The translations under genes were made by a program, and so were the position numbers. The notes beneath the pieces were generated by a model. The model worked only from the letters and a program-made list of their open reading frames with translations. It made no database searches and was not told the DNA's origin. A stretch of DNA of 64,000 bases from Plantactinospora soyae (GTDB taxonomy: Bacteria > Actinomycetota > Actinomycetes > Mycobacteriales > Micromonosporaceae), in the NCBI RefSeq assembly GCF_014874095.1, contig NZ_JADBEB010000001.1, forward strand, positions 6,138,001 to 6,202,000. Direction: 5' to 3'. This document shows, one piece after another, positions 4,462-25,346 of this stretch (position 1 is the first letter of the stretch; each line of letters begins with the position of its first letter).

Positions 4462-5122
4462 CGCTGCACGTGAAGAGCATGAGTGACCCGGCAGCGCCAG
4501 CGCCGACGGGGGATCCGGCGCGCTCCGGCACGCCGTTCTGGCGGCGCCCGTGAGTCGGGCCGCTGGCCGTCCTGGCCGTCCTGTACCTGTACACGACGTC
4601 GAAGCCGTTCCTCGGGGTGCCGGAGAGCAAGGCGCCACTGCAGCCGCACGACAACTTCCCGCTCTACTACCCGGTGCTCATCGTTCACATGATCGGCGGC
4701 ACGATCGCCATGCTGGCGGTCGTCCCGCAGGTCTGGCCGTGGTTGCGCACGCACCACCCGAAGGTGCACCGGACATTCGGGCGGATCTACCTCGTCGGCA
4801 CCCTCGTGGCGGTCGCCACGGGACTCGTGGTCGTCTGGTGGGCTCCGAAGCCCGGCAAGACCGGCGCGCTGTGCTTGCTGCTGGTCTGGGGCGCTACGAG
4901 CGCGATCGGGTACCACGCCGCCCGCCGCCGGAACTTCGCCAAGCACCGCCAGTTCATGCTGTACAGCTTCGCGATCGCGATGAACAACATCTGGGCCGCG
5001 TTCGCCCTGATCGTGCTGGTGGCGCTGCTTGGATCCCCTGGGTCGGCAACCTGATGCTGGTGCAGTGGTGGCTCTACCGCACCGCGCGGCCGGCCGAGGT
5101 GGCCGGGACGGCGACGACATGA
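4458..5122 (+). pseudogene. DUF2306-type membrane protein gene, broken by a stop and a frameshift
   Basis: A GTG at 4458 overlaps the TGA of the upstream gene (GTGA), a coupled start. The frame is stopped by TGA at 4551, at the edge of the first membrane helix (RRP, stop, VGPLAVLAVLYLY). It then continues in the same frame through a recognisable DUF2306 body ('VLIVHMIGGTIAM', then 'RTFGRIYLVGTLVAV', then 'KHRQFMLYSFAIAMNNIW'). Near 5028 the frame shifts by one base: the expected C-terminus 'WIPWVGNLMLVQWWLYR' lies in another frame and ends at 5122. Two independent lesions make a decayed gene the simplest reading; sequencing error at one site cannot be excluded. Confidence 0.75.
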
Positions 5123-6675
5123 CAGACGCCAGTAGCGCATCCACTCGCCCGCTGACCGGCGAGGAGTACCTCGAAACCGTGCGCGACGACCGGGAGATCT
5201 ACATCTACGGCGAGCGGGTCAAGGACGTCACCGAGCACCCCGCGTTCCGCAACCCGGCCCGGATGACCGCACGCCTCTACGACGCACTGCACGACCCCGA
5301 GCACCACGACGTCCTCACCACCGCCACCGACCACGACGGCCCCCGGGGCTACACCCACCGCTTCTACACGACACCGCACACCGTCGACGACCTCGTCGCC
5401 GACCAGAAAGCCATCGCCACCTGGGCCCGGCTCAGCTACGGCTGGATGGGCCGCAGCCCCGACTACAAGGGAGCGTTTCTCGGCACGCTCGGCGTCAACG
5501 CCGACTTCTACAACCCCTTCGCCGACAACGCCCGCCGCTGGTATCGAGAGGCCCAGGAAAAGGTCCTCTACTGGAACCACGCCTTCGTCCACCCACCCGT
5601 GGACCGCGACAAACCAGCACACGAGGTCGCCGACGTGTTCATCCACGTCGAACGCGAGACCGACAGCGGGGTGATCGTGTCCGGGGCGAAGGTGGTGGCC
5701 ACCGGATCGGCACTGACCCACCACAACTTCATCGCCCACGCCGGGCTGCCGGTCAAGGACCGCAAGTTCAACATCGTAGCCACCGTGCCGATGAACGCAC
5801 CCGGCCTCAAACTGATCTGCCGGCAGTCCTACGCGGCGGCGTCGACGCTCACCGGCAGTCCGTTCGACTACCCCCTGTCCTCCCGGATGGACGAGAACGA
5901 CGCCATCCTCATCCTGGACAAGGTGCTCATCCCCTGGGAGAACGTCTTCATCTACGGCGACGCGATGAAGGTCGGCATGTTCACCGGACAGTCGGGTTTC
6001 AACGAGCGATTCACCTTCCAGGGCTGCACCCGGCTGGCGGTGAAATTCGAGTTCCTCGCCGGCCTGCTCGCCAAGGCCTTCGAGATCACCGGCGTCAACA
6101 ACTTCCGCGGCGTGCAGACCCGCCTCGGTGAGGTACTCGCGTGGCGCAACCTCTTCTGGGGACTCTCCGACGCCGCCGCCCGCAACCCCGTACCCTGGCG
6201 CAACGGATCAGTGCTACCCAACCCGGACTACGGGTCGGCGTTCCGCTGGTTCTCCCAGCTCGGCTACGCACGCCTACGAGAGATCGTGCTACAGGACGTG
6301 GCCAGCGGGCTGATCTACCTCAACTCCAGCGCACAGGACTTCGGCAACGACAACGTCCGGCCGTACCTGGACAAATACCTCCGCGGCTCACACGGCATCG
6401 ACTCCGTCGAACGCGTCAAAGTCATGAAACTGCTCTGGGACGCCGTCGGCTCCGAATTCGGTGGCCGCCACGAACTCTACGAACGCAACTACACCGGCAA
6501 CCACGAGAACACCCGGATCGGGATTCTGATGGGGCAGATGGCCGACGGCCAACTCGACGGCTACAAAAGCTTCGTCGACCAATGCCTCGCCGAATACGAC
6601 CTCGACGGCTGGACCGTCCCCGACCTCTCCTCCTTCGAGAACATCGGCCGACAGGCACGCACCCTGCTGAGCTGA
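5119..6675 (+). CDS. HpaB-family flavin-dependent 4-hydroxyphenylacetate 3-hydroxylase-like enzyme, copy 1
   Basis: The 518-residue protein matches the 4-HPA 3-monooxygenase large-subunit family (usual length about 480-520). Visible family segments include '[19 protein letters not shown]' near the N-terminus, a central '[20 protein letters not shown]' stretch, and '[15 protein letters not shown]' at residues 267-281. These enzymes use free FADH2 to hydroxylate phenolic rings and need a separate flavin reductase, which is not seen nearby. The ATG at 5119 overlaps the terminal TGA of the broken DUF2306 frame, and GTG/ATG coupling suggests the same transcript. A near-copy in inverted orientation lies at 8226-9788. 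The true substrate is not clear from sequence. Confidence 0.85.
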
Positions 6676-8225: not shown

Positions 8226-9788
8226 TCAGCTCAGCAGGGTGCGTGCCTGTCGGCCGATGTTCTCGAAGGAGGAGAGGTCGGGGACGGTCCAGCCGTCGAG
8301 GTCGTATTCGGCGAGGCATTGGTCGACGAAGCTTTTGTAGCCGTCGAGTTGGCCGTCGGCCATCTGTCCGAGGAGCAGTTCCACGCGGGTGTTCTCGTGG
8401 TTGCCGGTGTAGTTGCGTTCGTAGAGTTCGTGGCGGCCACCGAATTCGGAGCCGACGGCGTCCCAGAGCAGTTTCATGACTTTGACGCGTTCGACGGAGT
8501 CGATGCCGTGTGAGCCGCGGAGGTATTTGTCCAGGTACGGCCGGACGTTGTCGTTGCCGAAGTCCTGTGCGCTGGAGTTGAGGTAGATCAGCCCGCTGGC
8601 CACGTCCTGTAGCACGATCTCTCGTAGGCGTGCGTAGCCGAGCTGGGAGAACCAGCGGAACGCCGACCCGTAGTCCGGGTTGGGTAGCACTGATCCGTTG
8701 CGCCAGGGTACGGGGTTGCGGGCGGCGGCGTCGGAGAGTCCCCAGAAGAGGTTGCGCCACGCGAGTACCTCACCGAGGCGGGTCTGCACGCCGCGGAAGT
8801 TGTTGACGCCGGTGATCTCGAAGGCCTTGGCGAGCAGGCCGGCGAGGAACTCGAATTTCACCGCCAGCCGGGTGCAGCCGTGGAACCAGGCGCGTGCGTT
8901 GAAACCCGAGTGCCCGGTGAACATGCCGACCTTCATCGCGTCGCCGTAGATGAAGACGTTCTCCCAGGGGATGAGCACCTTGTCCAGGATGAGGATGGCG
9001 TCGTTCTCGTCCATCCGGGAGGACAGGGGGTAGTCGAACGGACTGCCGGTGAGCGTCGACGCCGCCGCGTAGGACTGCCGGCAGATCAGTTTGAGGCCGG
9101 GTGCGTTCGTCGGTATGGCGGCGATCAGTGCGAACTTGCGGTCCTTGATGGGCAGCCCGGCCTGGGCCACGAAATTGTGGTGGGTCAGTGCCGATCCGGT
9201 GGCCACCACCTTCGCCCCGGACACGATCACCCCGCTGTCGGTCTCGCGTTCGACGTGCATGTATACGTCGGCGACCTCGTGCGGAGGCCGATCGCGGTCG
9301 ACCGGCGGATGCACGATCGCGTGGTTCCAGAAGAGGACCTTTTCCTGGGCCTCTCGATACCAGCGGCGGGCGTTGTCGGCGAACGGGTTGTAGAAGTCGG
9401 CGTTCACCTTCAGCGTGCCGAGGATCGCCGCCGAGTGTTCCGGGCTGCGCCCGAGCCAGCTGTAGCTCAGCCGTCCCCACGCGGCGATGGCTTTCTGGTC
9501 GGCGACGAGGTCGTCGACGGTGTGCGGTGTCGTGTAGAAGCGGTGGGTGTAGCCCCGGGGGCCGTCGTGGTCGGTGGCGGTGGTGAGGACGTCGTGGTGC
9601 TCGGGGTCGTGCAGTGCGTCGTAGAGGCGTGCGGTCATCCGGGCCGGGTTGCGGAACGCGGGGTGCTCGGTGACGTCCTTGACCCGCTCGCCGTAGATGT
9701 AGATCTCCCGGTCGTCGCGCACGGTTTCGAGGTACTCCTCGCCGGTCAGCGGGCGAGTGGTTGCGGTGTTGGGCGCCTGTTCGCTCAT
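8226..9788 (-). CDS. HpaB-family flavin-dependent hydroxylase-like enzyme, copy 2
   Basis: The 520-residue product is a full-length second copy of the HpaB-like enzyme. Long segments are identical to copy 1 even at DNA level (for example the parts corresponding to copy-1 residues 9-100 and 302-466). Short patches (copy-1 residues about 101-126, 151-175, 205-224, 291-301 and 467-472) differ in most codons. The ATG at 9788 overlaps the stop of the upstream monooxygenase gene, so the two are translationally coupled. Identity with copy 1 stops one base after the TGA. The clustered differences suggest gene conversion between paralogues. Confidence 0.88.
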   Translation of the reverse strand: MSEQAPNTATTRPLTGEEYLETVRDDREIYIYGERVKDVTEHPAFRNPARMTARLYDALHDPEHHDVLTTATDHDGPRGYTHRFYTTPHTVDDLVADQKAIAAWGRLSYSWLGRSPEHSAAILGTLKVNADFYNPFADNARRWYREAQEKVLFWNHAIVHPPVDRDRPPHEVADVYMHVERETDSGVIVSGAKVVATGSALTHHNFVAQAGLPIKDRKFALIAAIPTNAPGLKLICRQSYAAASTLTGSPFDYPLSSRMDENDAILILDKVLIPWENVFIYGDAMKVGMFTGHSGFNARAWFHGCTRLAVKFEFLAGLLAKAFEITGVNNFRGVQTRLGEVLAWRNLFWGLSDAAARNPVPWRNGSVLPNPDYGSAFRWFSQLGYARLREIVLQDVASGLIYLNSSAQDFGNDNVRPYLDKYLRGSHGIDSVERVKVMKLLWDAVGSEFGGRHELYERNYTGNHENTRVELLLGQMADGQLDGYKSFVDQCLAEYDLDGWTVPDLSSFENIGRQARTLLS

Positions 9789-17976: not shown

Positions 17977-18711
17977 ATGACAGCGTCCGCAACCGGTCGA
18001 GGACCGGTCCTTGTGGTAAGCGCGCACGCCGCCGATTTCGTCTGGCGCGCCGGTGGTGCCGTCGCACTGAGCGCCTCCCGGGGTCAGCAGGTGCACGTGC
18101 TCTGCCTTACCTTCGGCGAAAAGGGAGAATCGCAAGGGTTGTGGAAGCAGCCCGGGATGACCCTCGAACGCGTCAAGGAGGCGAGACGGGACGAGGCGAG
18201 CCGGGCGGCGAAGGTCCTCGGCGCCGAAATCGAGTTCCTCGACGTGGGAGACTACCCGCTGCGCGCGACCGACGCGCTCTACGACAGCGTCACCGCGACC
18301 ATCCGGCGGATCAACCCCGCCACGATCATCACCCACCCGGTCAAGGACCCCTACAACCTCGACCACTCGCTCACCCACGAGATCGTGCTGCGGTCCCGGA
18401 TGGTCGCCCAGGCGGCCGGACACGACCGCTCCAGCCAGCCGATCGGGGCCACCCAGGTGCTGCAGTTCGAGCCGCACCAGCCGGAACAGTGCGACTTCGT
18501 ACCGAACCTGCTGCTCGACATCTCCGAGGTCTTCGAGCGGAAGGTCGAGGCGATGCGGATCATGGGGGCGCAGGGTCACCTGGTCGCGTACTACACCGAT
18601 CTCGGCGTCCGGCGCGGTGTGCAGGCGGTCCGCAACGGCGGTCCCCGCTCGATCACCCACGCCGAGGCCTTCCAGCGGGTGTTCCCGGTAGTCGGGAGCG
18701 AACTCCTGTGA
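17977..18711 (+). CDS. PIG-L/LmbE-family hydrolase, likely 4-oxalomesaconate hydratase (GalB type)
   Basis: The 244-residue protein belongs to the PIG-L (LmbE) zinc family: N-terminal 'VLVVSAHAADFVWRAGG', then 'CLTFGEKGES', 'EARRDEASRAAKVLGAEIEFLDVGDYP' and 'HPVKDPYNLDHSLTHEIV'. The usual AHPDD zinc motif is AHAAD here, as in the GalB branch rather than sugar deacetylases. GalB adds water to 4-oxalomesaconate in the gallate and protocatechuate 4,5-cleavage routes. Direct overlap with an RraA-type aldolase, the next step, and a LigB-LigA dioxygenase in the cluster support this reading. ATG 17977 follows GGAAAGGA. Confidence 0.78.
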   Translation: MTASATGRGPVLVVSAHAADFVWRAGGAVALSASRGQQVHVLCLTFGEKGESQGLWKQPGMTLERVKEARRDEASRAAKVLGAEIEFLDVGDYPLRATDALYDSVTATIRRINPATIITHPVKDPYNLDHSLTHEIVLRSRMVAQAAGHDRSSQPIGATQVLQFEPHQPEQCDFVPNLLLDISEVFERKVEAMRIMGAQGHLVAYYTDLGVRRGVQAVRNGGPRSITHAEAFQRVFPVVGSELL

Positions 18712-19514
18712 GCGGCCACGTCATCGTCCGGACCACCGTCGCGCCGCCGGCCGATGCCGTCAAGCGCCTCGGCGAACTCGGCGTGTCGACGGTGCACGAG
18801 GCGCAGGGGCGGACCGGGCTGCTCGGCCACCTGCTCCGGCCGATCTACCCCGGCGCCCGAATCGCCGGTCGGGCGGTCACGGTCTCGGCCCAGCCGGGCG
18901 ACAACCTGATGATCCACGCGGCGGTCGAACAGACCCGGCCCGGTGACGTCCTCGTGGTGGCCTTCACCTCGCCGAGCACCGACGGCGCCTTCGGTGAACT
19001 GCTCGCCACCTCGTTGCGCGCCCGTGGGGTGCTCGGCCTGGTCATCGAGGCGGGCTGCCGGGACGTGGCCGAGCTGACCGAGATGCGGTTTCCGGTGTGG
19101 TCACGGGCGGTCTCCTCGCAGGGGACGGTCAAGGCGAGTCCCGGCTCGGTGAACGTCCCGGTGGTCGTCGGCGGCGGATACGTACGGCCCGGCGACGTGA
19201 TCGTGGCCGACGACGACGGGGTCGTGGTGGTGCCGCGCGAGCGGGCCCAGGCGGTCGCCGCGGCGGGCACCGAACGGCAGGACAAGGAAGAGGAGAAGCG
19301 TCGGCAACTGGCCGACGGCGTACTCGGCCTGGACATGTACAACCTCCGGCCGCTGTTGGACCGGCTCGGCGTCCAGTACGTCGACGCCCCGGACGGCGAC
19401 GGAACCAACGGCGACGGAACCAACGGCGACGGAAGCGACCACGACGGGACCGACGGCGACGCGTCGGGTGGTGACGGGTCCGGGCGCGGATCGACCGGCC
19501 CGGCAGCCTCCTGA
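18708..19514 (+). CDS. RraA-type 4-carboxy-4-hydroxy-2-oxoadipate aldolase / oxaloacetate decarboxylase
   Basis: The 268-residue product starts at GTG 18708, overlapping the TGA of the hydratase gene. It has the RraA fold pattern: 'LGVSTVHEAQGRTGLL', 'IAGRAVTVSAQPGDNLMIHAAVE', 'LVIEAGCRDVAEL' (metal/substrate region GxxRD) and 'VRPGDVIVADDDGVVVVPRERA'. Such aldolases split 4-carboxy-4-hydroxy-2-oxoadipate into pyruvate and oxaloacetate, the last step of the gallate pathway. The C-terminal 35 residues are a low-complexity Asn-Gly-Asp/Gly-Ser tail built on a 15-bp DNA repeat (around 19396-19440), beyond the usual family length. Confidence 0.82.
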   Translation: MSGHVIVRTTVAPPADAVKRLGELGVSTVHEAQGRTGLLGHLLRPIYPGARIAGRAVTVSAQPGDNLMIHAAVEQTRPGDVLVVAFTSPSTDGAFGELLATSLRARGVLGLVIEAGCRDVAELTEMRFPVWSRAVSSQGTVKASPGSVNVPVVVGGGYVRPGDVIVADDDGVVVVPRERAQAVAAAGTERQDKEEEKRRQLADGVLGLDMYNLRPLLDRLGVQYVDAPDGDGTNGDGTNGDGSDHDGTDGDASGGDGSGRGSTGPAAS

Positions 19515-20220: not shown

Positions 20221-20757
20221 ATGGCAGTGGAACCACTGATCGATCCCACCGGTAACGGCGACCTTACCTCGAATACCACCCTCGCGCCGCGACCGGGTAC
20301 GTTGCGTGGCCGAACCCTCGGTCTGCTGAACAATACCAAGCCGAATGCCGCCGTCCTGCTACAGGAACTCGGCGAGCAGCTCCAGCGTGGATACGGCCTC
20401 CGCGAATTCGTCATCTACACCAAGCCCTACTTCGGCACCCCGGTGGAGCAGACCCAGATCGAGCGGATCGTCCAGGAGTGTGACTTCGCCGTCGCGGCGG
20501 TCGGTGATTGAGGCTCCTGCAGCGCGGCCAGTCTGGCCGACGGAGTTCTGCTCGAACGTGCCGGGATCCCGACGGTGAGCATCTGCACCGACGCCTTCCG
20601 GGTGCCCGCCGACGCGATGGCGAAGGCGCTGGGCTTCCCCGGGTTCGAGTACGTGACGGTCCCGCATCCGGTGGCGAGTCTGACGCTGCCCGAGGTCAAG
20701 GAGAGGGTACGGACGATGTTGCCCCGGTTGCTGAGGATCCTGGGGGTGGAGCAGTGA
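20221..20757 (+). CDS. UGSC-family selenoprotein (Sec at residue 97)
   Basis: The reading frame runs from ATG 20221 through an in-frame TGA at 20509-20511 to TGA 20755-20757, giving 178 residues with selenocysteine at position 97. Around it the sequence reads AAVGD-U-GSCSAAS, the motif that names the UGSC family, and the frame after the TGA is clearly the same protein ('LERAGIPTVSICTDAF', 'PGFEYVTVPHPVASLT'). This resembles the Sec-containing segment of GrdB-like reductase subunits. A SECIS-like hairpin follows the TGA. GGGAGG lies upstream of the start. The stop overlaps the GTG of the next gene, a partner by position. Function is unknown; a redox or Se-dependent reductive role is inferred. 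Confidence 0.85.
20509..20545 (+). promoter_or_regulatory. SECIS-like element after the in-frame UGA
   Basis: After the UGA (20509-20511), CTCC at 20514-20517 can pair with GGAG at 20542-20545, and CGGCC (20525-20529) pairs with GGCCG (20535-20539) around loop AGTCT. The apical loop begins 18 bases past the UGA and has a G in its first two bases, both as expected for bacterial SECIS elements. Confidence 0.7.
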
Positions 20758-21881
20758 CGACCACCGCTGCCCCGTCCGGGGTCGGCGGCGGCCCGGACCA
20801 GTCGCCACCGGCAGCGCCGTCGGCGTTGGACCCGGTGGCGGCGCGCGAGGTGATCGAGCACTACTACGCGCAGGGCTGGACCGACGGCCTGCCCGTGGTG
20901 CCGTGCTCGGAGAGCCTGCTCGCCGAGTTCCTCGCCGAGGTGGACCAGGATCCCGACGAGATCATTTTCGCCATGCCGCACCTCAACCGGACCTGCTCGG
21001 TACGTCTCGCCGCCGTCAACGCGGCCATGGCCGGCTGCCGCCCCGAGTACTTCCCGGTGGTGCTCGCCGCCTGGGCGGCGCTCGCCGAGGAGGGGTACGC
21101 CGGCAAGGGCATCTGGCAGAGCACGACCGGAAACGGCACCTTCCTGATCGTGAACGGGCCGGCCCGGGACCGACTGGAGATCAACAGCCGGGGCAACATC
21201 TTCGGCTCCGGCTTCCGGGCCAACGCGACGATCGGCCGGGCGATCCGGCTGACCGCGATCAACGCGTTCGGGCTGCGTCCGCACGTCCTCGACCAGGCGA
21301 CCCAGGGAACACCGGCGAAGTACACCTGCTGCATCGCCGAGAACGAGGAGGAGAGTCCCTGGCCAGCGCTGCACACCGACCTCGGCTTCGAGGCCGGGCA
21401 GAGCGCGGTGACGGCGATGATGACCCGGTCGGTGGTGCACATCGAGGCCCGGCACACGATCGAGTCGGACCAGCTTCTGAATGACCTCGCCAACACCGTC
21501 GCCCGGACCGGTGCGCTGGTGCACGAGACCATCAGCGCGTGTGTCGTGCTGGGGCCGGAGCACGCGAACCTGCTGGCCCGGGCGGGAATGTCCAAGGCGG
21601 ACGTACGACAGGCGCTCTTCGACAAGGCGGTGCAGAGCCGGGCGACGCTGGACGCGGTCGGCAAGGGCGCGGTGTCCCGCAACACCCGGTGGCGGATCCC
21701 CCGGGAACATCCGGACGCCGTGCTGGACGGCGAGACCGACCAGGTCCGGGTGCTCAACTCACCGGAGGCGGTCGTGGTCGTCGTCGCCGGTGCCTCCAAC
21801 GCTGGCGTCTCGGCGGTCGCCGAGACGTTCGGACCCAGAGGTGGCCCCCCGGCCACCGCCCGAGTGAAGGATGTGCGATGA
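20754..21881 (+). CDS. Uncharacterised cysteine-bearing partner of the UGSC selenoprotein
   Basis: The 375-residue protein starts at GTG 20754 inside the stop of the selenoprotein gene. Its conserved-looking text includes 'GWTDGLPVVPCSESL', 'HLNRTCSVRLAAVNAAMAGCRPEYFPVV', 'LIVNGPARDRLEINSRGNIFGSGFRANATIGRAIRL' and 'KYTCCIAENEEESPW'. Several Cys residues occur in these conserved-looking blocks. I know this kind of protein mainly as an unnamed companion of UGSC proteins. There is no signal peptide and there are no membrane helices. Its stop overlaps the start of the next gene, so strict co-translation is likely; it may form a complex with the selenoprotein. Confidence 0.7.
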   Translation: MTTTAAPSGVGGGPDQSPPAAPSALDPVAAREVIEHYYAQGWTDGLPVVPCSESLLAEFLAEVDQDPDEIIFAMPHLNRTCSVRLAAVNAAMAGCRPEYFPVVLAAWAALAEEGYAGKGIWQSTTGNGTFLIVNGPARDRLEINSRGNIFGSGFRANATIGRAIRLTAINAFGLRPHVLDQATQGTPAKYTCCIAENEEESPWPALHTDLGFEAGQSAVTAMMTRSVVHIEARHTIESDQLLNDLANTVARTGALVHETISACVVLGPEHANLLARAGMSKADVRQALFDKAVQSRATLDAVGKGAVSRNTRWRIPREHPDAVLDGETDQVRVLNSPEAVVVVVAGASNAGVSAVAETFGPRGGPPATARVKDVR

Positions 21882-22135
21882 CCACTGAGCAGAAGACCAC
21901 GGATCCGGCCCTGGAGACCGCGTTCGCCGACACCGTGACGGTGCTGGCCCGGGACGGCTACGCCGCGACGTGGGAACTGGACGGCGAGGGCGCGGTCACC
22001 TTCCGGGTCGCCGCGACCGCCGACGCCTGCGCGGACTGCCTCGTGCCGGCCCCGGTGATGCAGGCCATCCTCGACAGCGCCCTGGAGGGGACCGGCTACC
22101 GGATCGGCCGGGTGGAACTTCCCGCCGACCACTGA
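21878..22135 (+). CDS. Small CxxC protein of unknown function
   Basis: An 85-residue protein starts at ATG 21878, overlapping the preceding TGA. It contains one CADC motif (Cys51, Cys54) followed by LVPAPVMQAILDSAL and a short beta-rich end (YRIGRVELP). The size and motif suggest a small thiol or metal carrier for the neighbouring redox enzymes, but I recognise no family. Confidence 0.65.
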   Translation: MTTEQKTTDPALETAFADTVTVLARDGYAATWELDGEGAVTFRVAATADACADCLVPAPVMQAILDSALEGTGYRIGRVELPADH

Positions 22136-22227: not shown

Positions 22228-23649
22228 ATGGCAGTCGGAGACACCCACATCCGTGAACCGGAACGGGCCACCCCGGTACGCGGCGAGTACGACGTGGTCG
22301 TGGTCGGCGGCGGACCGGCGGGCCTGATGGCCGCGGCGGCGGCGGCGCGTACCGGCCGGTCGACCATCCTGCTGGAGCGGTACGGCTTCCTCGGCGGCGC
22401 CGGCACGATGGGCGGGCTGAGTACGTTCTGCGGCCTGCACGCCCGGGTGCACGGCGAGCACCAGCGGGTGATCCGGGGACTCACCGACGAACTGCTGGAC
22501 CGGCTGGAGCGGATGGACGGGCTGAACGCGCCGCACCTCTCGGTCGCCGACCGGATCATGGCGCAGGCGTTCGACATCTCGGCGTACAAGATGGCCGCCG
22601 ACGACCTGGTCCTGGCCGGTGGCGGGAAGCTGCTGTTCCACGCGACGGCGGTCGGGGTGTCGATGGCCGGTCCGACCGAGATCGACGCCGTGATCGTCGA
22701 GTCGAAGTCCGGCCGGAGCGCGATCCGGGGCCGGGTGTTCGTCGACGCCTCCGGGGACGGGGACCTCGCCGCCTGGTCCGGTGCGCCGTACGAGGTGTCG
22801 GAGAAACTGCTCTACCCGTCCCTGATGTTCCGGATCAACGGCGTCGACGCCGCCCGCGCCGGGCAGGCGTGGAAGACCGTCGCCCGGCTGATGGACGAGG
22901 CGGAGCGGGCCGGCACGCACACGTTCCCCCGGAAGAAGCCGATCGTCCGGCCCCAGCGCAACCCGCTCGAGTGGCGGGCCAACCTGACCCAGTTGAGCAA
23001 TCCGGACGGCAGTGCGGTGGACGGCACCGACGTCGACGGGCTGACCCACGGCGAGATCCAGGGCCGCCGGCAGGTACGCGACGCCTTCGCCTTCATCCGG
23101 GAGCACACGCCGGGCTTCGAGGACTCGTACGTCGTCGACCTCTCACCGCAGATCGGCATCCGGGAGACCCGTCGGATCGTCGGCCCGTACCAGCTCACCG
23201 AGGACGACATCCTCGACTGTGTCGACTTCCCGGACACCATCGGGGTGAACGGCTGGCCGGTCGAGGCGCACGTCGCCGGGGACGTCGAGTTCCGGTTCCC
23301 GCGTGCCGACGCGGCGTCCCGGGGATTCAACCAGTTGCCGTACCGGATGATGCTGCCGCAGGTGGTGGAGAACCTCTTCGTCGCCGGCCGGTGCGCGTCG
23401 ATGACCCAACGCGGGCAGTCCTCCGCCCGGGTCACCGGGCCGTGCTTCGTGATGGGGCAGGCCGCCGGTACCGCCGCCGACCTCGCGCTGTCGGCCGGCG
23501 TCGCGCTCCGGGACGTCGACATCGCCACCTTGCAGAAACGGTTGACCGGCGACGGCGCCTACCTCGGCACCGACCTCGCGCCGGACACCGCTGCCACGGA
23601 CACCGCTGCCACGGACAGCGCGGGCGCCGGCACCGGGGAGCACCGATGA
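22228..23649 (+). CDS. FAD-dependent oxidoreductase (FAD_oxidored family)
   Basis: The 473-residue protein opens with a dinucleotide-binding fold, 'YDVVVVGGGPAGLMAAAAAARTG', followed by 'ILLERYGFLGGAGTMGGLSTFCG', the pattern of the FAD-dependent oxidoreductases related to glycine/thiazole and precorrin-type enzymes. 'VFVDASGDGDLAAWSGAPYEV' and the late 'LFVAGRCASMTQRGQSSARVTGPCFVMGQAAGTAA' complete the FAD-binding pattern. ATG 22228 follows GAAAGG. Its stop overlaps the next gene by four bases. A short Thr/Ala/Asp tail is encoded by a 15-bp repeat. Substrate is unknown; context is the selenoprotein operon. Confidence 0.8.
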   Translation: MAVGDTHIREPERATPVRGEYDVVVVGGGPAGLMAAAAAARTGRSTILLERYGFLGGAGTMGGLSTFCGLHARVHGEHQRVIRGLTDELLDRLERMDGLNAPHLSVADRIMAQAFDISAYKMAADDLVLAGGGKLLFHATAVGVSMAGPTEIDAVIVESKSGRSAIRGRVFVDASGDGDLAAWSGAPYEVSEKLLYPSLMFRINGVDAARAGQAWKTVARLMDEAERAGTHTFPRKKPIVRPQRNPLEWRANLTQLSNPDGSAVDGTDVDGLTHGEIQGRRQVRDAFAFIREHTPGFEDSYVVDLSPQIGIRETRRIVGPYQLTEDDILDCVDFPDTIGVNGWPVEAHVAGDVEFRFPRADAASRGFNQLPYRMMLPQVVENLFVAGRCASMTQRGQSSARVTGPCFVMGQAAGTAADLALSAGVALRDVDIATLQKRLTGDGAYLGTDLAPDTAATDTAATDSAGAGTGEHR

Positions 23650-25346
23650 CCCGCCAGCTGCGCAGCAACTTCGAACCCGGCACCACCCGGTGGGCGATGC
23701 GCCGGGCCCAGTGGCGGGCGATGGGCCTGACCGCCGAGGACGAGGTCAAACCGAAGATCGCCATCGTGAACAGCTCGTCGGCCCTGGCGAGCTGCTTCAG
23801 CCACCTCGACGACATCGTGGGGCCGCTCAAGGCCGCGATCAGGTCCGCCGGCGGGGTGCCCTTCGAGGTACGGACCGCCGCGCCGAGCGACGCGATCACC
23901 AGTGCCGGCCGCGCGGGGCAGTACATCCTGCCCAGCCGGGACCTGATCGTGCACGACATCGAGGTGGCGGTCGAGGGCGCCCAGCTCGACGGCATGGTCT
24001 GTCTGGCGTCCTGCGACAAGACGGCACCCGCGCACCTGATGGCCGCGGCCCGGCTCGACCTTCCGACCATCGTGGTGGCCTGCGGGTACCAGGCGACCGG
24101 GCGGTACCGGGGCGAGCACATCGACTTCGAGGACATCTTCCTGCGGGCGGGGCACGTCGCCAGCGGGCGGCTCACCGTCGACGAGCTCAGCGAGATGAGC
24201 GAGTGCGCGATCGGCGGGCCCGGGGTATGCGCCGGGATGGGTACGGCCAACTCGATGCACATCGCCTGTGAGGCGCTGGGCATGTCGATGGCCGGCAGCA
24301 CTCCGGTACGCGCCAACGGCGACCGGATGTGGCGGGCGGTCCGGCGGGCCGGTGAACGGATCGTGGAACTCGTGACCGAGGACGTCCGGCCGAGGCAGAT
24401 CCTGACGGCGGACGCCTTCCGCAACGCGGTTACCACGATTCTCGCGGTGAGTGGCTCGGTCAACACGCTCAAGCACCTCCAGGCGGTCGCGGTGGAGGCG
24501 GAGTGCGCCGTCGACATCGCGGGCCTGTTCGAGGAACTCGCCGCGCAGGTGCCGCTGCTGACCGGGGTGAAGCCGAACGGCGACCGGCACGTCGACGAGT
24601 TCGAGGACGCGGGGGGTACGCCGGCGCTGCTGAAGCAGTTGGCGCCGTTGCTGCGGCTCGACGCGGCCACGGTCACCGGCCCCCGGCTCGGCGAACTGCT
24701 GGCCGGGGTCGAGGTGGCCGACGCCGACGTCATCCGACCGCTGGAGAACCCGCTGGCCCGGCATCCGGCCATCGTGGTGGTACGCGGCTCGCTGGCCCCG
24801 GACGGAGCGATCATCAAGCGTACGGTGGCCGACGACGCGCCGTTGCGGTTCCGGGGACCGGCGCGGGTCTTCACCTCCCGCGAGGAGGGGCTGGCCGCGA
24901 TCAAGCGGGGCGAGGTCCAGCGGGGCGAGGTGCTGGTGCTCAGCGGTCTCGGCCTGCGCGGTTCGCCGGGAATGGGCCTGACCTCCGCGTTCGTCTTCGC
25001 GCTCGACGGTGCCGGCCTGGGCGAGCACGTCGCGGTGATCACCGACGGCCAGCTCTCCGGCCTGGTGAACAAGGGTCTGGTCGTCGGCGAGGTGGCTCCC
25101 GAGGCGGCCACCGGTGGGCCGCTCGGCCTGGTCCGCGACGGCGACGTCATCACCGTGGACGTCCGGGAACGCACCGTCGACCTGCTGGTGGACGACGCGA
25201 CCCTGGCCGCGCGCCGGGACCGGCTGCCGGCGCCCGTACCGGCGGTCGGTTGTGGCTGGCTCTCCGTCTACGCCCGGGAGGTGGGCCCGCTGACCGAGGG
25301 GGCCACGCTGGGCGGTCGACTGCCCCGAAGTGTCGCGACAGAGTAG
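23646..25346 (+). CDS. IlvD/Edd-family Fe-S dehydratase
   Basis: The 566-residue protein is of the dihydroxy-acid dehydratase/phosphogluconate dehydratase family. Cluster-ligand cysteines are at Cys50 (ALASCFSHL), Cys123 (ASCDKTAPAHLMAAARLDLP) and Cys195 (GPGVCAGMGTANSMH). Late family blocks 'LRGSPGMGLTSAFVFALDGAGLG' and 'VITDGQLSGLVNKGLVVGEVAPEA' are present. It is in a catabolic operon and not near ilv genes, so it more likely dehydrates a sugar acid or hydroxy acid than makes branched-chain amino acids. ATG 23646 overlaps the stop of the FAD enzyme. It ends the selenoprotein operon before the sensor kinase. Confidence 0.85.
   Translation: MTRQLRSNFEPGTTRWAMRRAQWRAMGLTAEDEVKPKIAIVNSSSALASCFSHLDDIVGPLKAAIRSAGGVPFEVRTAAPSDAITSAGRAGQYILPSRDLIVHDIEVAVEGAQLDGMVCLASCDKTAPAHLMAAARLDLPTIVVACGYQATGRYRGEHIDFEDIFLRAGHVASGRLTVDELSEMSECAIGGPGVCAGMGTANSMHIACEALGMSMAGSTPVRANGDRMWRAVRRAGERIVELVTEDVRPRQILTADAFRNAVTTILAVSGSVNTLKHLQAVAVEAECAVDIAGLFEELAAQVPLLTGVKPNGDRHVDEFEDAGGTPALLKQLAPLLRLDAATVTGPRLGELLAGVEVADADVIRPLENPLARHPAIVVVRGSLAPDGAIIKRTVADDAPLRFRGPARVFTSREEGLAAIKRGEVQRGEVLVLSGLGLRGSPGMGLTSAFVFALDGAGLGEHVAVITDGQLSGLVNKGLVVGEVAPEAATGGPLGLVRDGDVITVDVRERTVDLLVDDATLAARRDRLPAPVPAVGCGWLSVYAREVGPLTEGATLGGRLPRSVATE

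Follow-up and report, generated by a model that had tools for sequence, protein, structure and literature searches.

A probable UGSC-family selenoprotein of Plantactinospora soyae and its neighbour P375, candidate subunits of a catabolic selenoenzyme

The stretch of the Plantactinospora soyae genome analysed here (64,000 nucleotides of contig NZ_JADBEB010000001.1, positions 6,138,001 to 6,202,000; hereafter the window) contains a gene, interrupted by an in-frame TGA, whose product is very probably a true selenoprotein belonging to the known UGSC family, with the TGA decoded as selenocysteine (Sec). This recoding is well supported, and about as sure as sequence alone allows. Together with P375, the 375-residue protein encoded next to it, the UGSC protein most likely represents a subunit of a catabolic selenoenzyme. 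The recoding is a clean example of a phenomenon that is itself already known; novelty would lie in the enzyme, a UGSC-P375 pair akin to the glycine and proline reductase subunits GrdB and PrdB.

The frame 20221-20757 is closed by two stops only, at codon 97 (TGA, 20509-20511) and codon 179, the first of which falls on the U of the [U/C]GSC motif (U97-G-S-C). The read-through protein scores 164.5 bits against NF041046, 'UGSC family (seleno)protein' (cut-off 125), and 214 bits against PF24696 (cut-off 25), the latter match covering residues 6-175 and thus spanning the TGA. The original prediction, made from the letters of the DNA, had placed a TGA on the U of UGSC within one continuous protein and proposed a UGA-decoded selenoprotein; the first two points are borne out by the frame check and the profile matches, and the third is supported by the Sec machinery and the relatives described below. 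The same genome has another UGSC gene, likewise with a single in-frame TGA (G000:C1:4653926-4654438). Relative to its counterpart in another genome (G452), the window gene carries 9, 0 and 34 substitutions at codon positions 1, 2 and 3 before the TGA (96 codons) and 7, 2 and 13 after it (81 codons), so that the third-position substitution bias persists downstream of the TGA.

Where the window protein has residue 97, aligned relatives carry Sec or cysteine (Cys), as the original prediction had anticipated. In a first set of 47 loci, 26 carry TGA and 19 Cys, with two unparsed (L051 and L062, absent also from the stem count below, which covers the 45 parsed loci); weak or partial matches (L052-L054, L067, L072) were left out of this set, and PF24696 matches of the phylum sample without a locus were not read. 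A second set derives from a scan of genome contigs with P375 as query; out of at least 570 relatives, the best 80 make up its loci. In 78 of these, 84 UGSC matches comprise 64 recoded ones (63 TGA, one TAG), 19 with Cys and one without the motif (L168:5161). The other two loci (L171, L174), titled Bordetella parapertussis and taken for mislabelled environmental assemblies, were kept out of the Sec/Cys and stem counts and of alignments A3-A8, and were retained in the P375 scan, the P375-UGSC adjacency counts and the neighbour counts over 80 loci; alignments A3 and A4 consist of the window plus 68/79 and 79/90 usable relatives, respectively. In one further genome (G136), a weak UGSC match has Met at the Sec position.

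The single TAG belongs to Geodermatophilus sp. TF02-6 (L104, 9736-9775), where it is followed by the same hairpin with the loop AGTGT. The tRNA-Sec of this organism (L180; Rfam RF01852, 65.3 bits, over cut-off) has the anticodon CTA, because of which ARAGORN labels it tRNA-Pyl; Sec codon and tRNA-Sec anticodon have changed together here. A CTA tRNA is also present in G. sabuli (L181), yet the UGSC locus of that species (L108) carries Cys. PMC5330540 describes three Geodermatophilaceae genomes with an anticodon-CUA tRNA-Sec, and mentions UGSC-motif selenoproteins of this family, credited to its reference 56.

Evidence for a putative selenocysteine insertion sequence (SECIS) element downstream of the codon comes from comparison of relatives. 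With the T of the TGA numbered 1, the stem joins bases 17-21 to bases 27-31 across a five-base loop. All five pairs form in 26/26 TGA loci vs 2/19 Cys loci of the first set, and in 59 of the 64 recoded vs one of the 19 Cys matches of the second (Fisher p 8e-13, relatedness ignored). Among 62 distinct rows drawn from 65 recoded sequences, including the window, paired cells amount to 96.5% (74.1% in shuffles), compensatory cells with both sides changed to 48 (13.2 in shuffles) and the covariation score to 0.533 (0.170 in shuffles), values that none of 500 shuffles reaches; sliding the stem partner by 1-3 columns brings pairing down to 19-58%. The codon at U+7, which supplies the loop, is AGT in 55/64 recoded loci, a triplet used for 16 of the 300 serines encoded by 15 genes of the window. 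The large-set test covers the upper five pairs; two further pairs form in 18/26 TGA loci of the first set and do not form in the window. As far as these upper five pairs are concerned, the covariation bears out the two-part hairpin that had been proposed just past the TGA, and the comparative evidence as a whole supports it as a candidate SECIS element.

Sec machinery is present in the genome to which the window belongs, a single contig of 9,715,930 bases. The search for selA, selB, selC and selD that the original prediction had suggested found all four: a tRNA-Sec with anticodon TCA, and selA, selB and selD (398.3, 281.9 and 390.2 bits, each over cut-off) clustered at 7.009-7.013 Mb. SelB and tRNA-Sec(UCA) would read the TGA at 20509 as Sec, with the hairpin at 20525-20539 as the guiding signal. 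A formate dehydrogenase frame that also has an in-frame TGA (ARI-U-HSATV; L222, G000:C1:7023549-7024289) is situated about 11 kb from the sel cluster, and a Cys paralogue of it is found at G000:C1:4186197. The accompanying claim that Sec use is rare in this group of organisms is not supported: selA is over cut-off in 43/60 searched genomes and 21/34 of the same family, in a set that combines UGSC carriers with some genomes listed without UGSC and is not a random draw. It is UGSC that is uncommon in the sampled genomes, and not the Sec machinery; PF24696 matches occur in 29/396 genomes of a phylum sample (27 over cut-off) and 14/300 of a family sample (13 over cut-off). A selA over cut-off accompanies TGA-bearing UGSC in 24/26 genomes, and is present in 7/12 genomes with Cys-form UGSC only.

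Several observations weigh against the recoding or its hairpin. The hairpin's folding energy is no better than that of shuffles (z = 0.10), which is why support was sought by comparison of relatives; the number of pairs changed on both sides is 4 vs 3.4 in shuffles (205/500 reach it), and that of further pair types, at 10 vs 7.4 (8/500), is only mildly above them. Pairing is slightly raised in the Cys rows as well (69.5% vs 62.6% in shuffles, 3/500; covariation score 0.172 vs 0.107, 12/500), and among the 64 recoded loci five lack the full stem and nine lack AGT at U+7. In addition, two genomes with a TGA-bearing UGSC, out of 26, have no selA over cut-off: G036 and G419, the latter 80% complete.

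The constant neighbour P375 starts with a GTG that overlaps the UGSC stop, and it adjoins UGSC in 20/20 fetched regions. As those regions had been picked for their UGSC, the scan that starts from P375 is a fairer test of the pairing: a same-strand UGSC lies within 1 kb of 85 of the 97 P375 copies in those best 80 loci. Gene order varies, P375 preceding UGSC in many loci. Searches of Pfam and NCBIfam with the window P375 give nothing at E up to 1, and the 18 other members of its alignment give scattered weak family matches, the best being PF24696 in one (E 0.00036); that member is taken to be L086, where a Cys-form UGSC and P375 occupy one shared open frame. The pairing is drawn from gene order and from this one shared frame. 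A fusion of UGSC to an 'Unknown_1' domain has been reported (PMC2398784). Contigs from a betaproteobacterium (L149) and a Chloroflexi metagenome-assembled genome (L168) have four UGSC-P375 pairs apiece, all inside 21 kb. In plasmid records P375 finds 24 matches, of which the 15 listed comprise nine hypothetical proteins, four places without a gene and two unannotated ones, and UGSC finds seven, five of them annotated as UGSC family. Across 80 P375 sequences, D44, C95, E196 and W203 are invariant and C193 nearly so. An AlphaFold2 model of P375 reaches a predicted local distance difference test (pLDDT) score of 94.3; Foldseek finds only weak alignments and no match at E <= 0.001 with it, and profile comparison detects no kinship of P375 to UGSC or GrdB/PrdB. 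PDB sequence searches from three of the alignments made in this analysis return nothing credible.

For UGSC itself, the predicted fold is a Rossmann-like alpha/beta domain, with a strand at 89-95 ahead of the motif and Sec where a helix begins. Profile comparison shows its C-terminal half to be distantly related to the GrdB/PrdB Sec domain: hhalign aligns 84 columns (84-174) with a probability of 94.5 and E 8.3e-8, Sec falling on Sec, while four control comparisons, two of which used single sequences, give probabilities of 0.2 to 1.2. Weak matches to TIGR01917, TIGR04483 and TIGR01918 occur in 27, 20 and 14 of 69 UGSC members, respectively. As a separate observation, TIGR01918 (GrdB/PrdB-like) matches in 80/396 actinobacterial genomes, 18 over cut-off, and many of these matches are TGA-bearing frames covered in their C-terminal half only, apparently a PrdB-like selenoprotein group.

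The genes around the pair point to acid or aromatic catabolism. Besides those listed in the table, the neighbourhood includes a sulfonate-type transporter protein (TIGR01728, over cut-off), a luciferase-like monooxygenase, a PIG-L-type hydrolase, a muconolactone-isomerase-like protein and an HpaB-type hydroxylase. The IlvD-type dehydratase and the flavin adenine dinucleotide (FAD)-dependent enzyme are found again beside the genome's other UGSC locus (L077), and each occurs in 5/80 loci of the second set, with four loci common to both, two of which overlap on one contig; the small CxxC protein recurs in L078, L083 and L084 of the 20 regions and in L099, L102 and L123 of the 80 loci. When Pfam families were counted in 132 open frames from the neighbourhoods, chosen from 205 candidates that a simple open-reading-frame picker, prone to spurious frames as well, had supplied, many catabolic families appeared (among them short-chain dehydrogenases in seven members, TctC receptors in five and IclR regulators in five) from which no single pathway emerges. 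Elsewhere in the window, two genes of HpaB type, resembling those of 4-hydroxyphenylacetate hydroxylase and oriented oppositely, 5119-6675 (+) and 8226-9788 (-), are identical at 479/519 aligned positions (stop included) and 1471/1557 aligned bases. An ARAGORN tRNA-Trp call at 18396-18485, inside the PIG-L gene, is probably false; Rfam is silent there at gathering scores.

Table 1. Position, strand and supporting evidence of the UGSC gene, its recoding elements and adjoining genes in the window
Feature	Position	Strand	Evidence or remark
LigK-type 4-carboxy-4-hydroxy-2-oxoadipate aldolase, upstream catabolic gene	18708..19514	+	NF006731 345.1 bits, TIGR02798 321.3 bits, both over cut-off
Probable UGSC-family selenoprotein gene, 178 residues, Sec at codon 97	20221..20757	+	NF041046, PF24696; one internal TGA
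TGA probably read as Sec (U of UGSC)	20509..20511	+	Relatives with Sec or Cys there; TAG in L104 with CTA tRNA-Sec
Putative bacterial SECIS upper hairpin, stem CGGCC/GGCCG, loop AGUCU	20525..20539	+	13 bases past TGA; covariation; mostly absent in Cys relatives
P375, 375 residues, GTG start overlapping UGSC stop	20754..21881	+	Adjoins UGSC; no Pfam/NCBIfam match
Small 85-residue protein with CxxC	21878..22135	+	No family match
FAD-dependent oxidoreductase, recurring operon gene	22228..23649	+	PF12831 374.3 bits
IlvD/Edd-type dehydratase, recurring operon gene	23646..25346	+	PF00920, PF24877

In the proposed enzyme, UGSC would be one of two subunits and P375 (20754-21881) the other, both within a carboxylic- or aromatic-acid degradation operon. 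P375 would hold the substrate, towards which the selenolate would serve as nucleophile or reductant; this reaction is put forward tentatively. With a little less confidence again, the pair may constitute an undescribed two-subunit selenoenzyme class, an oxygen-tolerant cousin of the clostridial glycine and proline reductases that serves aerobic carboxylic- or aromatic-acid degradation, and in which P375, whose window member matches no Pfam or NCBIfam model, replaces the pyruvoyl subunit. Counting against such an enzyme, 12 of the 97 P375 copies have no same-strand UGSC within 1 kb, two of these copies lying no more than 25 bases from where their contig ends and one having UGSC on the opposite strand, and the adjoining genes differ from locus to locus. 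UGSC moreover falls far short of the GrdB cut-off (TIGR01917, 15.5 vs 602.2 bits) and misses that of TIGR01918 (11.6 vs 65.45 bits), and its weak family matches are unspecific, the unrelated flavoprotein family TIGR02032 occurring in 12/69 members (best E 0.00017).

Among other functions for the pair, that of a lyase or dehydratase rather than a reductase is unlikely, if the least so. Less probable is a lone thioredoxin-like thiol oxidoreductase, a fold suggested in PMC2398784, which also tabulates several other UxxC selenoproteins as thioredoxin-like: the UxxC motif of UGSC would fit, but strands alternate with helices in its AlphaFold2 model (pLDDT 93.1), the model aligns best in the PDB to receiver- and Rossmann-like domains, with no thioredoxin chain among the 50 alignments listed, and both the GrdB/PrdB kinship and the constant neighbour argue otherwise.

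Rather doubtful is the idea that the TGA serves in addition as a selenium-sensing switch, translation stopping at residue 96 without selenium and P375 expression dropping as a result. P375 does lie directly downstream, its start at 20754 overlapping the UGSC stop, but it is upstream of UGSC in many loci, and a link of this kind would be a side effect of Sec coding and no alternative to it. That the TGA is an ordinary stop, due to a nonsense mutation, a pseudogene or a sequencing error, is extremely improbable: the frame formally closes at codon 97, but a TGA occupies the same place in the paralogue and in 63/84 UGSC matches, the third-position bias goes on past it, the hairpin covaries, the Sec machinery is intact and one relative combines TAG with a matching tRNA.

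The recoded gene as such is of a known kind, since UGSC is named in both NCBIfam and Pfam and actinomycete UGSC selenoproteins are in print (PMC5330540). The family ranks among the commoner selenoproteins of the Global Ocean Sampling data, with 255 sequences (PMC2398784), and a UGSC-containing protein is counted among selenoproteins with largely uncharacterised functions (PMC13188914); in the available portions of the open-licence literature on UGSC (PMC2398784, PMC13188914, PMC5029168, PMC5330540, PMC9312934) no function is assigned to it, and one may be in print elsewhere. Taken together, the constant neighbour and the GrdB/PrdB kinship give a specific, testable idea of what UGSC may do with P375, namely a Sec-dependent reaction on acids from the pathway of the operon.

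Compared with the UGSC family of NF041046 and PF24696, the window protein exceeds both cut-offs and shares the motif and the Sec/Cys position common to its relatives, differing by ordinary sequence divergence and nothing more that was found. The UAG-coded UGSC selenoproteins of Geodermatophilaceae (PMC5330540), of which L104, with its hairpin in the same position, is a case, belong to the same family and phylum, but use TAG with a CUA tRNA-Sec where the window has TGA with a UCA tRNA-Sec. Finally, UGSC differs from GrdB and PrdB (TIGR01917, TIGR04483, TIGR01918) in staying far below their cut-offs, in comprising 178 residues vs a 431-position profile and in having a neighbour that matches no family model; with them it shares a homologous Sec-bearing C-terminal domain in which Sec aligns to Sec.
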